This document shows, piece after piece, positions 53,390 to 57,387 of a DNA stretch of 57,387 bases. Numbering within the stretch: position 1 is the stretch's first letter; every line of letters begins with the position of its first letter. The position numbers and the translations under genes were made by a program. The DNA comes from an uncultured Pelagibacteraceae bacterium (GTDB lineage: Bacteria > Pseudomonadota > Alphaproteobacteria > Pelagibacterales > Pelagibacteraceae). The DNA lies in the NCBI GenBank assembly GCA_902596045.1, contig CACJSJ010000005.1, positions 1-57,387 of the forward strand, written 5' to 3'. The notes under the pieces were generated by a model, which was not told the DNA's origin, ran no database searches, and saw nothing but the letters and a program-made list of their open reading frames with translations.

Positions 53390-54559
53390 ATGAAAAATTA
53401 TAAATGGCAATTAATGTCGAACAATATATTGCTTAAAGATAAAAATAATCTAATTCAATTCATAAAAAAAACTAATAAGTTCACCAATGGACCAAAAGTA
53501 ATAGAATTTGAAAAAAAATGGTCTAAATGGCTTGGTGTAAAATATAGTACTTTTGTAAATTCTGGGGCTTCAGCTAATTTAATATCAATAAATATTTTAA
53601 AAGAACTTAATAACAATAAGAAAGAAATTATATTACCAGCTTTTACTTGGAGCTCTGATGTAGTTGCTGTAATAAATGCAGGGTTCAAACCAATTTTTGT
53701 AGATATAAATTTTGAGAACTTAGCTTTGAATGAAAATTTAGTAAGAAAAAAAATAAATAAAAATACGTTAGCTATTTTCATTACTCATGCTATGGGCTTT
53801 AATGGATTAACAAAAAAATTTGTTGAATTTGTAAAAAAAAAAAAGATTTATTTAATAGAAGATGTTTGTGAGTCTCATGGTGCAAAATTAGGAAAAAAAA
53901 AAGCAGGGACATTTGGAGAAATTTCAAATTTTTCATTTTACTACGGTCATCATATGACGACTGTCGAAGGAGGAATGATTTCAACTAATTCAAAAAAAAT
54001 AGACAGGTTAGCAAAAATGAAACGAGGGCATGGTTTATTAAGAGATTCTCAAGATAATAATTTTATTAAAGAAAATATAAAAAAAAGAAAAGATTTAAAT
54101 AATGATTTCATATTTTATACTGAGGGTTTTAATTTAAGAAGCACTGAACTATCAGCAGTTATTGGTATCAATCAGCTTAAAAGACTTAATAGGAATATTA
54201 AAATTAGAAACCAAAACCACAAGATATTTCTCAATCATCTAAGAGGTGATATTTTTTTTAAAGATTTTAAACTAAAAGGTGCAAGCAATTATGGTTTGCA
54301 TCTAATTCTTAGAAAAAAAAATTCTAATTTATTTAAAAGAATATTAGGAATATTAGATAGAAATTTAATAGAGTACAGGTTAGGAAGTTTAGGGAACCAA
54401 ATTAGGCAGCCATATCTAAGAAAATTTAAAAAAAAATCGTATTTAAAATTACTTAAAAATACTGAACACATGCATTTTTACTCAGTATATATTGGTAATC
54501 ACCAAGCTTTAGATAAAAATAGAATAATTAAACTTTGTAATAATTTAGATAAGATTTAA
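53390..54559 (+). CDS. DegT-family PLP enzyme with His in place of catalytic Lys (ColD-like 3-dehydratase)
   Basis: A 389-residue DegT/DnrJ/EryC1 protein from the ATG at 53390; a GTG nine bp upstream is less likely. Fold markers are VNSGASANLISINIL, LPAFTWSSDVVAVINAGF, LIEDVCESHGAKLG and GTFGEISNFSF. The position of the PLP-binding lysine is His187 in SFYYGHHMTTVEGG. The same Lys-to-His exchange defines sugar 3-dehydratases RfbH/DdhC and ColD, which use PMP to remove the C3 hydroxyl. The gmd gene downstream supplies GDP-4-keto-6-deoxymannose, exactly ColD's substrate. So GDP-4-keto-3,6-dideoxymannose is the likely product. An aminotransferase role is unlikely without the lysine. Confidence 0.85.
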   Translation: MKNYKWQLMSNNILLKDKNNLIQFIKKTNKFTNGPKVIEFEKKWSKWLGVKYSTFVNSGASANLISINILKELNNNKKEIILPAFTWSSDVVAVINAGFKPIFVDINFENLALNENLVRKKINKNTLAIFITHAMGFNGLTKKFVEFVKKKKIYLIEDVCESHGAKLGKKKAGTFGEISNFSFYYGHHMTTVEGGMISTNSKKIDRLAKMKRGHGLLRDSQDNNFIKENIKKRKDLNNDFIFYTEGFNLRSTELSAVIGINQLKRLNRNIKIRNQNHKIFLNHLRGDIFFKDFKLKGASNYGLHLILRKKNSNLFKRILGILDRNLIEYRLGSLGNQIRQPYLRKFKKKSYLKLLKNTEHMHFYSVYIGNHQALDKNRIIKLCNNLDKI

Positions 54560-54573
54560 TAGATAAAATTTTG

Positions 54574-55077
54574 ATGAAAATATTAATTGATAAAAAATTG
54601 AAAGAAGTAAAAATTTTTAAACCAAAAATATTTAATGATTTTAGAGGTGAGATTTGGACCAAATGGGAAAAAAAATTTTTTAAAAATACAAAATTTAATT
54701 TAAGCAAGTATACGTCCTCTAAAAAAAATGTGCTCAGAGGATTTCATGGTGATCAAAAATCATGGAAATTAGTTTCTTGTATTAGAGGCGAAGTTTTAAA
54801 TGTTGTGGTTGATTATCGAAAAAGTTCAAAAAATTATCTCAAATATACATCTTTTGTTTTAAATGATAAAAATAAACTATCAGTACTCATCCCACCTAGA
54901 TTTTTAAATTCTTGGCTTTGTTTAAGTAAAAATTGTGTTTATTCATATGATTATTATTTTAAAGGAAATTATAATGATGTTAAAAATCAAATAAGTATAA
55001 AATGGAATGATGCTAAAATTAACTTTAAGTGGCCAATTAAAAAACCAATACTATCTTTTCGTGATAGACAGCGTTAA
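54574..55077 (+). CDS. RmlC-like sugar epimerase (cupin)
   Basis: A cupin of 167 residues related to dTDP-4-dehydrorhamnose 3,5-epimerase. FNDFRGEIWTKWEKKFF, the catalytic His in NVLRGFHGDQKSWKLVSCIRG-like VLRGFHGDQKSWK, EVLNVVVDYRKSS, and IPPRFLNSWLCLSKN with Tyr in YSYDYYF are recognisable. It is shorter than RmlC. The ATG at 54574 follows an in-frame TTG. Flanked by the ColD-like and gmd genes, it probably epimerises a GDP-4-keto sugar, not the dTDP sugar. Confidence 0.82.
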   Translation: MKILIDKKLKEVKIFKPKIFNDFRGEIWTKWEKKFFKNTKFNLSKYTSSKKNVLRGFHGDQKSWKLVSCIRGEVLNVVVDYRKSSKNYLKYTSFVLNDKNKLSVLIPPRFLNSWLCLSKNCVYSYDYYFKGNYNDVKNQISIKWNDAKINFKWPIKKPILSFRDRQR

Positions 55078-55106: not shown

Positions 55107-56165
55107 ATGAAAAAGAAAAAAGCATTAGTCTTTGGAATTACTGGTCAAGATGGTTCATACCTAGCAGAGTTATTATTAAATAAAAATTATCTTGTATATG
55201 GTGTAAAAAGAAGAACTAGCTTAATTCATACGACTAGAATTGACCACATATATAAAGATTTTCATCTAAAAACTAATCTAATATTAAAGTATGGAGATGT
55301 AACTGATTTTTCAAATGTATTTAGATTAATCAATGAAATTAAACCTGATGAAATTTACAATTTAGCAGCCCAAAGTAATGTAGGAGTTTCTTTTGAATTA
55401 GCCGAATATACTGCTCAAACAGATTCAATTGGTACACTCAGAATTTTAGAGGCAATTAGAATAATAGATACAAAAAGAAAAATGAAATTTTATCAAGCGT
55501 CCACTTCAGAGATTTTTGGTAATAGCCCAGATAAACCTTATAACGAAAAAAGCAAGTTCGAACCTGTTTCACCTTATGGAACAGCAAAACTTTATTCATA
55601 TTGGACAACTAGAAATTATCGAGACGCATATTCAATGTTTGCTTCAAATGGTATTCTTTTCAATCATGAGTCACCAAGACGAGGTGAAAATTTTATTTCA
55701 AGAAAAGTAATAATAGGAATTATCAAAATCTTAAAAGGCCATCAAAAATGTCTTTATCTAGGAAATTTAAAATCTAAAAGAGATTGGGGGCATGCGAAAG
55801 AGTTTGTGGATGCACAATGGAAAATTCTTCAATACAAATTTCCTGATGATTTTGTAATAGCAACGGGTAAGAATTATTCAGTCAAAGATTTGGTAAATTT
55901 AGTGTTAAAGAAATTAAAAATTAAATTTTTATGGAAAAAAGATAAAAAGGGCTACGAATATGCTATAGCTAAAAATGATATTGGACAAATCAAAAAATCA
56001 CAAATAATTATAAAACAAGAAAAGATTTACTTTAGGCCTAATGAAGTTCATAATCTTGTTGGTGATTACAGAAAAGCCACTAAATTACTTAAGTGGAAGC
56101 CAAAAATTAAATTTGATCGACTTATATCGGAAATGATTGATTCTGATCTAAAAAATATTATTTAA
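55107..56165 (+). CDS. gmd: GDP-mannose 4,6-dehydratase
   Basis: SDR-family dehydratase of 352 residues. GITGQDGSYLAELLL at the start binds NADP. The catalytic Thr and Glu are in QASTSEIFGN, and Tyr and Lys in SPYGTAKLYSYW. VKRRTSLIHTTRIDHIY, FNHESPRRGENFISRKV and DWGHAKEFVDAQW are specific to GMD. It converts GDP-mannose to GDP-4-keto-6-deoxymannose, the precursor of fucose, colitose, perosamine and rhamnose. The stop shares a base with the following transketolase gene. Confidence 0.95.
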   Translation: MKKKKALVFGITGQDGSYLAELLLNKNYLVYGVKRRTSLIHTTRIDHIYKDFHLKTNLILKYGDVTDFSNVFRLINEIKPDEIYNLAAQSNVGVSFELAEYTAQTDSIGTLRILEAIRIIDTKRKMKFYQASTSEIFGNSPDKPYNEKSKFEPVSPYGTAKLYSYWTTRNYRDAYSMFASNGILFNHESPRRGENFISRKVIIGIIKILKGHQKCLYLGNLKSKRDWGHAKEFVDAQWKILQYKFPDDFVIATGKNYSVKDLVNLVLKKLKIKFLWKKDKKGYEYAIAKNDIGQIKKSQIIIKQEKIYFRPNEVHNLVGDYRKATKLLKWKPKIKFDRLISEMIDSDLKNII

Positions 56166-56920
56166 TGTTCAAAAATGAATTAAATAAAATAAGATATTCA
56201 ATTTTAGAAAGTTGTTTTAATACCAAAGAAGGACATATCGGAAGTGCTTTTTCTGTAATTGAAATTTTATATGTTATTTTCAAAAAATATTTCAAAAAAC
56301 ATTATTTCATATTAAGCAAAGGTCATGCAGCAATTGGTTTATATGCTGTAATGAATCATTTTAAAATTCTTAAAAATAAAGATTATAAGTCATTTTGTAA
56401 GCTTAATTCAAAATTAGGTGGGCATCCAGACTCAACAAAATTGCCAAATTTAAAATTTTCCACAGGATCACTAGGTCATGGTTTGCCAGTTTCATCAGGT
56501 TTAGCCTATGGTCTTAAAATACAAAAAGATAAACGTAAGATAATTTGTTTAGTTGGTGATCAAGAATTAATGGAAGGAACAACTTGGGAAAGTTTACATA
56601 TTATTAATAATTATAAAATTAAGAATATTCTTCTTATAATTGATAGAAATAATTCTGATTTTAGAAGTATCAAATTTCTACAACTTAAAAAAAAACTTTC
56701 AGTTTTTTGTGATAAAATTTCAGAAGTAGATGGACATAATATAAAAGCTCTTTCTAGTAGAATTGATAAAGCAATAAAAAATAAAAAATCTTTTGAAATA
56801 TTAATTGCTAAAACAATTAAGGGAAAAGGTATACGATCTATGGAGAATAACCCAGAATGGCATCATAAAGCACCATCAAAAAATGAAATGATTAATTATA
56901 AATTAGAGCTGAAAGTATGA
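56165..56920 (+). CDS. Transketolase-like protein, N-terminal (thiamin diphosphate-binding) subunit
   Basis: A 251-residue protein equal to the pyrophosphate-binding half of transketolase. KEGHIGSAFSVIEILYVIF, ILSKGHAAIGLYAVM, STGSLGHGLPVSSGLAYG and the ThDP motif VGDQELMEGTTWESL with Asn in IIDRNNSD are intact (GDQ replaces GDG). The HHKAPSKNE end is the family linker. Two-gene transketolases occur in central metabolism and in secondary pathways. The overlap with gmd suggests a role in making a modified sugar here. Confidence 0.92.
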   Translation: MFKNELNKIRYSILESCFNTKEGHIGSAFSVIEILYVIFKKYFKKHYFILSKGHAAIGLYAVMNHFKILKNKDYKSFCKLNSKLGGHPDSTKLPNLKFSTGSLGHGLPVSSGLAYGLKIQKDKRKIICLVGDQELMEGTTWESLHIINNYKIKNILLIIDRNNSDFRSIKFLQLKKKLSVFCDKISEVDGHNIKALSSRIDKAIKNKKSFEILIAKTIKGKGIRSMENNPEWHHKAPSKNEMINYKLELKV

Positions 56921-57387
56921 GAAAAAATTTCCCAATCGTAACTGAAAAATTAATGCAAAAAAATAAAAAGATTTTTTGTTTACTTGGCGACATTGGTGTT
57001 TTTTCTTTTAGTAATATTTTTAATAAATATAAGAATAGAATTTTAAATATGAGTACAATGGAGCAGTCTATGATTGGTTTTGCTGCTGGATTATCTAAAG
57101 CCGGTTTTATTCCCATAATACATACTATTGCACCATTTTTAGTTTTACGGGCTTTAGACCAAATTAAGATTGATTTTGTTTATAATAAATTAAATTGCAA
57201 TATTGTATCCGTGGGGGCCTCAAATGATTATACAAAACTTGGCACAACCCATCATTGTTTTGAAGATATTAATATCCTTTCAAGTTATGAAGATATCAAT
57301 TTGTTTATCCCTTCAAATGAAAAAGATTTTAAATATTTGTTTGAAAAAAATTACAATAATAATTCAATAAATTATTTCAGATTATCT
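56917..57387 (+). CDS. Transketolase-like protein, C-terminal subunit (partial)
   Basis: The frame starts ATGA at 56917, overlapping the previous stop, and runs off the window after 157 codons. It has the pyrimidine-binding half of transketolase: the catalytic Glu in MSTMEQSMIGFAAGLSKAG, PIIHTIAPFLVLRALDQIK, and THHCFEDINILS with the substrate-binding His pair. With the N-terminal subunit it forms an enzyme that moves two-carbon ketol units. The C-terminal domain is not seen. Confidence 0.9.
   Translation, partial: MRKNFPIVTEKLMQKNKKIFCLLGDIGVFSFSNIFNKYKNRILNMSTMEQSMIGFAAGLSKAGFIPIIHTIAPFLVLRALDQIKIDFVYNKLNCNIVSVGASNDYTKLGTTHHCFEDINILSSYEDINLFIPSNEKDFKYLFEKNYNNNSINYFRLS

Follow-up and report, generated by a model that had tools for sequence, protein, structure and literature searches.

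A predicted His-type 3-dehydratase beside a split transketolase in a Pelagibacteraceae-like genome: a candidate operon for a branched dideoxy sugar

Described C3-dehydratases and sugar carboligases

ColD, the GDP-4-keto-6-deoxy-D-mannose 3-dehydratase (PDB entries 2gms, 2r0t, 3b8x and 3gr9), carries a His residue in place of the PLP-binding Lys residue of the DegT-family sugar aminotransferases, an exchange that one review ranks as the most important difference from those enzymes (PMC8987622). RfbH/E1, the CDP-4-keto-6-deoxyglucose 3-dehydratase (3bcx), has the same exchange, acts on a CDP-sugar and uses a [2Fe-2S] cluster, as described in that review (PMC8987622). In Campylobacter jejuni, 3,6-dideoxyheptoses are reported to be made through a GDP-heptose 4,6-dehydratase, a C3-dehydratase, a C5-epimerase and a C4-reductase (PMC10440746). 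The C. jejuni C3-dehydratases are 62–67% identical to two ColD-type enzymes (PMC10440746) and thus belong with ColD rather than with the clade described below. Thiamine diphosphate (ThDP) carboligases can act on the C4 ketone of such sugars: YerE adds a two-carbon branch to CDP-4-keto-3,6-dideoxyglucose, and the split-gene transketolases of the miharamycin and amipurimycin pathways are proposed to act on a keto sugar by transferring a hydroxyacetyl unit (PMC12247030). The same 2025 review describes the role of transketolases with keto sugars as still pending, with none characterized in vitro, and lists 13 further putative split transketolase sequences, all from Streptomycetes (PMC12247030).

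The locus analysed here lies near the end of a stretch of 57,387 nucleotides, referred to as the window, from a genome of 1.07 Mb that is 87% complete and whose nearest named relatives are Pelagibacteraceae. Its central protein resembles ColD in the fold, the His-for-Lys exchange, the HH motif, the lack of a four-Cys motif and an adjoining GDP-mannose 4,6-dehydratase (GMD) gene. Unlike ColD, it has a split transketolase alongside and belongs to a separate clade at 27–29% identity, and its genome is without a GDP-fucose-synthase-type gene over the cut-off. The His-for-Lys exchange and, as predicted, the overall reaction are shared with RfbH/E1, which differs in its CDP-sugar substrate, its [2Fe-2S] cluster and its place on the tree. 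The C. jejuni HS:5/HS:11 systems likewise place a 3-dehydratase, acting on GDP-6-deoxy-4-keto-heptose, and a GDP-4-keto-sugar C5-epimerase in one cluster, but the substrate is a heptose, and the passages of that report on these enzymes mention no transketolase (PMC10440746). In the yersiniose-type YerE pathway, a ThDP carboligase acts on the C4 ketone that a 3-dehydratase leaves (PMC12247030), as proposed here, and a YerE-like enzyme occurs in one relative of the window; the window itself combines a split transketolase with GDP-sugar enzymes. The miharamycin and amipurimycin transketolases are split in the same way, whereas the window belongs to a Pelagibacteraceae-like genome and holds nucleotide-sugar genes. 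The kind of enzyme is thus already known, and it is the combination of the pathway that looks new.

The His-type DegT-fold enzyme and its clade

The enzyme is encoded on the forward strand at 53390–54559 by an open reading frame of 389 residues, which starts at the first ATG (53390) and ends with the stop codon at 54559; a GTG codon is found 9 bases upstream (53381). The protein matches the DegT/DnrJ/EryC1 family (Pfam PF01041, 202 bits) and is predicted to be a PLP/PMP-dependent GDP-4-keto-6-deoxyhexose 3-dehydratase. Two CAT codons (53948–53950 and 53951–53953, forward strand), in frame with the reading frame, encode H187 and H188, numbered from the ATG, in the context SFYYGHHMTTVEGG, as the original prediction quoted them. 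That prediction placed the first His at the position of the aminotransferase Lys, and the alignments agree. In a phmmer search across the PDB, H187 is aligned with ColD His188, and the best match is ColD 2gms (1.5e-47, 165.6 bits). The ColD His188 column contains Asn in chain 3b8x and Lys in chains 2r0t and 3gr9; the PDB titles identify 3b8x and 3gr9 as the H188N and H188K mutants of ColD, respectively.

At the H187 column, a first set of 35 rows contains His in the window protein and 30 other rows and Lys in the remaining 4. In the extended set, all 84 sampled rows of the window protein's clade and all 28 remaining His-type rows have His in this column, and all 50 Lys-type rows have Lys, so that H187 is neither a chance residue nor a sequencing slip. 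The search patterns that retrieved most clade members did not include the motif around H187. Both H187 and H188 are invariant across an alignment of 56 of the clade's 84 rows, which also served as input for the structure model. Asp158, which in the DegT/aspartate-aminotransferase fold faces the pyridine nitrogen, is retained by all 84 sampled rows of the clade. Another Lys residue at the PLP site, named in the original prediction as the refuting finding, received no support. The conserved K171 (81 of 84 clade rows) was considered as a substitute and rejected because Lys also occupies this position in 17 of the 50 Lys-type rows, which retain their own catalytic Lys. The protein contains only two Cys residues (Cys160 and Cys383), which are therefore too few for the four-Cys [2Fe-2S] motif of the E1 kind. 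A narrow search for the E1-type Cys motif found it in E1 and in none of the 84 clade rows. Because two rows placed with E1 escaped this search as well, the clade-wide count says little beyond the window protein.

To relate the protein to both classes, a tree was built by a quick method and rooted at the midpoint; its 164 sequences comprise 162 locus sequences, made unique beforehand, together with ColD and E1 from the PDB. The 50 Lys rows and 114 His rows part with a single change (support 98). The window protein is found in a His clade of 84 rows (support 100) on a long stem. ColD is grouped with ten other rows (support 100) apart from this clade, and E1 is also placed apart. Thus, of the earlier statement that the exchange is the hallmark of RfbH/ColD enzymes, the part on the Lys-to-His exchange is retained, as it is shared with His-type dehydratases, but the window protein falls outside both the ColD and the RfbH clades. 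It lies in a third His clade, neither ColD nor RfbH/E1, that is spread over many phyla. No characterized member of this clade was found in the PDB or in open-licence papers.

Profile and structure comparisons rank ColD first. A profile of the clade searched against the PDB scores 269.5 bits with ColD, 192 bits with E1 and 159 bits with perosamine synthase. The best curated NCBIfam model for the window protein is RfbH, at 195.2 bits, which is below the equivalog cut-off of 423. The AlphaFold2 model of the window protein (pLDDT 94.2, pTM 0.92) is matched first to ColD by both Foldseek (7e-31) and VIA (best entry 3b8x; Z scores of 47.6–48.7 over 375–378 residues for ColD), followed in VIA by E1 (45.8) and by aminotransferases (45.6 and below). 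Because the margin over the aminotransferases is small, the fold alone is indecisive, and the His residue and the tree decide. Sequence, profile, tree and predicted structure, with ColD as the closest solved structure, all favour the originally predicted 3-dehydratase over an aminotransferase, and we regard this assignment as very probable.

The operon in the window and in its relatives

Four further genes follow on the forward strand. The gene at 54574–55077 encodes an RmlC-fold epimerase (PF00908, 123 bits) that is predicted to act at C5 (or C3/C5) of a GDP-4-keto sugar and that scores 110.8 bits with TIGR01221, under the cut-off of 155.75. In the PDB, eight sequences match it at 132–139 bits, and the next entry follows at 78.7 bits; several of the eight are titled GDP-4-keto-heptose epimerases, and some thymidine diphospho-4-keto-rhamnose 3,5-epimerase. 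The epimerase searches used 54586–55074, which begins inside the reading frame. The GMD gene (55107–56165) exceeds the TIGR01472 cut-off (460 versus 415 bits) as the sole match in its genome to do so, and its product matches 1db3 best (392 bits), compared with 104 bits for the GDP-heptose 4,6-dehydratase 7us5. The last two genes encode the N-terminal, ThDP-binding component (56165–56920; PF00456, 78 bits) and the C-terminal component (56917–57387; PF02779, 65 bits) of a split transketolase, the latter covering 157 residues before the contig ends at 57387. The corresponding proteins of a relative (locus L057) match the N and C components of a split-chain transketolase (6yak, 128 bits, and 6yaj, 59 bits, respectively). 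The GMD and transketolase N genes overlap by one base, and the transketolase N and C genes overlap by four. By their sequences, the 4,6-dehydratase and the His-type 3-dehydratase, present together in this operon, would generate a C4 ketone. A YerE-like carboligase occurs only in the relative L053, and the split transketolase occupies the window operon.

Elsewhere in the window genome, there are a separate full-length transketolase gene and a GDP-mannose pyrophosphorylase-like gene, the latter under the cut-off. In searches of this 87% complete genome, the HddA heptose-kinase model had no match, and the best GDP-fucose-synthase-type protein stayed under the cut-off (61 versus 500 bits). In a search of 150 genomes, 31, including that of the window, match the window protein at an E value of 1e-40 or better.

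Within the clade, the window protein belongs to a subclade of 11 rows. Seven of these (the window, L040, L050, L051, L054, L057 and L058) share the split transketolase pair and its gene order, and all seven are bordered on the left by the same glycosyltransferase gene. A short-chain dehydrogenase/reductase (SDR) gene follows the pair in L054, L057 and L058, the three rows whose contigs continue. The contigs of the other four rows (the window, L040, L050 and L051) end inside the transketolase C gene, after 157, 103, 277 and 136 residues, respectively. L053 has the same left border but contains an SDR gene and an acetolactate-synthase-type ThDP enzyme in place of the transketolase pair; the best PDB match of this enzyme is 8rph (288 bits), named JanthE and described as YerE-like (PMC12188165). 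Since the dehydratase and the border are the same in L053 and in the pair-bearing rows, the YerE-like enzyme and the split transketolase seem to stand in for each other, a replacement observed at one locus; the other acetolactate-synthase-type neighbour in the clade (L066) lies on the opposite strand. L055 and L056 contain the dehydratase gene with neither the transketolase pair nor the SDR/acetolactate-synthase-type substitute, and the neighbourhood of L059 ends at the contig end. Among four relatives' genomes searched for GMD, two have no match over the cut-off of 415 (best 273 bits in that of L058 and 84 bits in G045), and in the genome of L054 a GMD over the cut-off lies outside the operon. 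G045, the 75% complete genome that holds L040, also gave no match for GDP-mannose pyrophosphorylase.

The wider clade was sampled from a genome scan that confirmed 450 relatives; the best 80 of the 450 were taken, so the clade counts come from the nearest relatives. Neighbouring genes were labelled with home-made profiles, mostly seeded from those same neighbours. Checks of the labels covered ten representatives in NCBIfam, eight of the same ten plus two others in Pfam, and ten further locus proteins in NCBIfam. The clade set spans phyla, and the controls come mainly from relatives of the window genome. Of the 84 clade rows, 44 have a ThDP enzyme of any type within 4 kb (transketolase in 23, E1-type in 19 and acetolactate-synthase type in 2); the control figures are 4/28 for the other His-type rows and 6/50 for the Lys-type rows (10/78 together; Fisher 5e-8). 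With full flanks only, the counts are 33/58, 3/16 and 6/37, respectively. The remaining 40 clade rows have no ThDP enzyme within 4 kb, some for a short flank, and 25 of the 58 rows with full flanks have none.

De-replication at 65% retained the row with the longest flank, so one row may stand for a subclade with mixed neighbours. In this reduced set, the enrichment is seen for any ThDP enzyme (14/26 versus 9/61, p 3e-4) and for the E1 type (8/26 versus 3/61, p 0.002), and transketolase alone is not significant (4/26 versus 4/61, p 0.18). Within Pelagibacterales alone, the corresponding values are 6/9 versus 8/56 (p 0.002) for any ThDP enzyme and 1/9 versus 4/56 (p 0.54) for transketolase. Complete transketolase pairs (22/84) and E1-type pairs (15/84) never share a locus (P 0.006, a value that ignores the kinship of the rows). 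These surroundings point to C4-branched dideoxy sugars with interchangeable ThDP carboligases. Outside the clade, L149 contains in a row a cytidylyltransferase-like gene (under the cut-off), a CDP-glucose 4,6-dehydratase gene (over the cut-off), a His-type DegT gene, a split transketolase and an SDR gene, and is a CDP counterpart of the logic of the window operon.

Other neighbours were observed during the survey. A B12-binding radical SAM protein, a family of which one representative was scanned, lies within 4 kb in 24/84 clade rows (L045, L062, L075, L117, L124 and others), 0/28 other His-type rows and 1/50 Lys-type rows, and perhaps methylates or rearranges the same sugar. Eight loci (L062, L079, L087, L106, L110, L121, L123 and L126) contain pairs of very short E1-alpha-like (median ∼200 residues) and E1-beta-like (median 178 residues) proteins. 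They are far shorter than the pyruvate dehydrogenase E1 models that they match, which have 315 and 327 positions (one of each scanned), and such a pair is possibly a minimal ThDP carboligase. In two genomes, at L049 (6933–8720) and L146, an acetolactate-synthase-type ThDP gene shares a few bases with another His-type DegT gene. Split transketolase pairs are also located near Lys-type DegT genes at L163 and L188, where the distance to the nearest transketolase gene is at most 1.1 kb.

Proposed pathway and its alternatives

As a whole, the locus is best explained by a route from GDP-mannose to a GDP-4-keto-3,6-dideoxyhexose that is then branched at C4 by the split transketolase, an explanation that we favour with moderate confidence. 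We infer the reactions, their order and their stereochemistry from what was computed, namely, the replacement by His, how the proteins are related, how the genes are arranged and to which families the partners belong. GDP-mannose would be 4,6-dehydrated by the product of 55107–56165, and the resulting GDP-4-keto-6-deoxyhexose would be 3-deoxygenated by the window protein (53390–54559) in a ColD-like manner. By analogy with the described ColD mechanism (PMC8987622), a ketimine would first form between PMP and the C4 ketone. A proton would then pass from the cofactor to His187 with departure of the C3 hydroxyl group, the enamine would be hydrolysed to the 4-keto-3,6-dideoxy sugar, and glutamate would regenerate PMP. 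With Lys at this place, ordinary transamination would be possible; with His, it would not. This dehydratase step is strongly supported by the sequence comparisons as a prediction. Epimerization, probably at C5, would be carried out by the product of 54574–55077.

The C4 ketone left by the dehydratase would be the acceptor that a ThDP carboligase needs. The split transketolase (56165–57387) would transfer a two-carbon hydroxyacetyl unit onto this ketone to yield a 4-C-branched 3,6-dideoxyhexose, a step to which gene order and the replacement in L053 give about an even chance. The downstream SDR may reduce the branch or a ketone; it is seen in relatives only, and the transketolase C component of the window is truncated at the contig end. 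More tentatively still, and with slightly less than even confidence, the product may be a GDP-activated 4-C-branched 3,6-dideoxyhexose for a Pelagibacteraceae surface glycan, made by a modular pathway in which a conserved, unrecognized clade of His-type 3-dehydratases, present across many phyla, is combined with exchangeable ThDP carboligases: a split transketolase, an E1-type pair or a YerE-like enzyme.

The best-surviving alternative is a plain, colitose-like 3,6-dideoxyhexose made by GMD, the 3-dehydratase, the epimerase and a C4-reductase, with the split transketolase as an unrelated neighbour. A pathway of this type would begin with precisely these genes, for GMD, a 3-dehydratase and a GDP-sugar epimerase, the C. 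jejuni dideoxyheptose route follows the same scheme, and L055 and L056 contain the dehydratase gene without a transketolase. The one- and four-base overlaps of the transketolase genes with their neighbours, the occurrence of the pair in 22 of 84 clade rows but never alongside an E1-type pair, and the YerE-like enzyme in its place in L053 all speak against an unrelated neighbour. ColC resembles GDP-fucose synthase, of which the window genome has no example over the cut-off. A plain colitose-like sugar is retained as an alternative because the contig is cut, and we consider it unlikely.

In a second alternative, a GDP-heptose pathway would be fed by sedoheptulose 7-phosphate (or a longer ketose phosphate) from the split transketolase, and the dehydratase would act on a GDP-heptose. 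It is retained because 54 of the 84 clade rows have an HddA-like, heptose-type kinase gene within 4 kb, compared with 3 of 78 controls (17/26 versus 3/61 after 65% de-replication, p 5e-9), although the representative of this kinase scores 156 bits against an HddA cut-off of 600. A GmhA-like isomerase and a sugar nucleotidyltransferase are found within 4 kb in 20/84 and 29/84 clade rows, respectively, and L096 and L117 unite transketolase, kinase, nucleotidyltransferase and isomerase. Given the frequency of the kinase, the sugar elsewhere in the clade is probably a heptose. In the window subclade, however, all three heptose-type genes are absent within 4 kb of the 11 rows. The window genome, moreover, lacks an HddA-model match, its GMD is of the GDP-mannose kind and it has another, full-length transketolase. 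By established enzymology, sedoheptulose 7-phosphate is not a product of the E1-type and YerE-like enzymes that occupy this position, which also counts against such feeding. The evidence says that the sugar of the window operon is a hexose, and a GDP-heptose substrate there is improbable.

Two alternatives concern the enzyme class itself. A 4-aminotransferase whose PLP lysine is displaced, or supplied by another residue position, would suit the DegT fold, the Pfam family name and the routine labels, but it is hardly credible given the His residue fixed in the whole sampled clade, a K171 that is not specific to His-type rows, the kinship with ColD and E1, and the reviewed finding that restoring Lys in E1 (H220K) led to transamination that was not catalytic (PMC8987622). 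A 3-dehydratase of the E1/SpnQ type, dependent on a [2Fe-2S] cluster and on a partner that donates electrons, is suggested by RfbH as the best curated model, well under its cut-off, and is equally remote in view of the two Cys residues, the position of E1 elsewhere on the tree and an operon that has no reductase gene up to the contig end.

If the proposed branching by the split transketolase is true, it would extend a transketolase route to tertiary-alcohol (branched) sugars beyond Streptomyces and show what Pelagibacteraceae display on their surface. The Pelagibacteraceae-type group is very abundant among ocean bacteria. Because different ThDP enzymes accompany a single dehydratase clade, four or five purified proteins would suffice to test the branching idea.

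The consequence for annotation, which the original prediction had raised, is twofold. The label 'aminotransferase' is easily given and would mislead about the sugar, as originally argued, here by implying an amino sugar in place of the predicted deoxy sugar; the view of the sugar is refined in that the split transketolase suggests a branched rather than a plain 3,6-dideoxyhexose as the final product. Such labels are found on phage and plasmid homologues. Fifty phage records match at 1e-20, and homologues in the Synechococcus phages S-CAM7 and ACG-2014f (L218, 6016–7149, and L219, 5980–7173) are 35% identical to the window protein and both share its GHHMTT motif. Two records of the S-CAM7 homologue disagree, one naming it 'aminotransferase' and the other 'putative CDP-4-keto-6-deoxy-D-glucose-3-dehydrase'. 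Seven plasmid homologues, compared by identity (29–32%) and by label, are all named aminotransferases. The neighbours of the cyanophage homologues are genes for a GDP-mannose 4,6-dehydratase, an epimerase or GDP-L-fucose synthetase and a glycosyltransferase, and by its gene content the cyanophage cluster is a predicted phage-encoded deoxysugar route.
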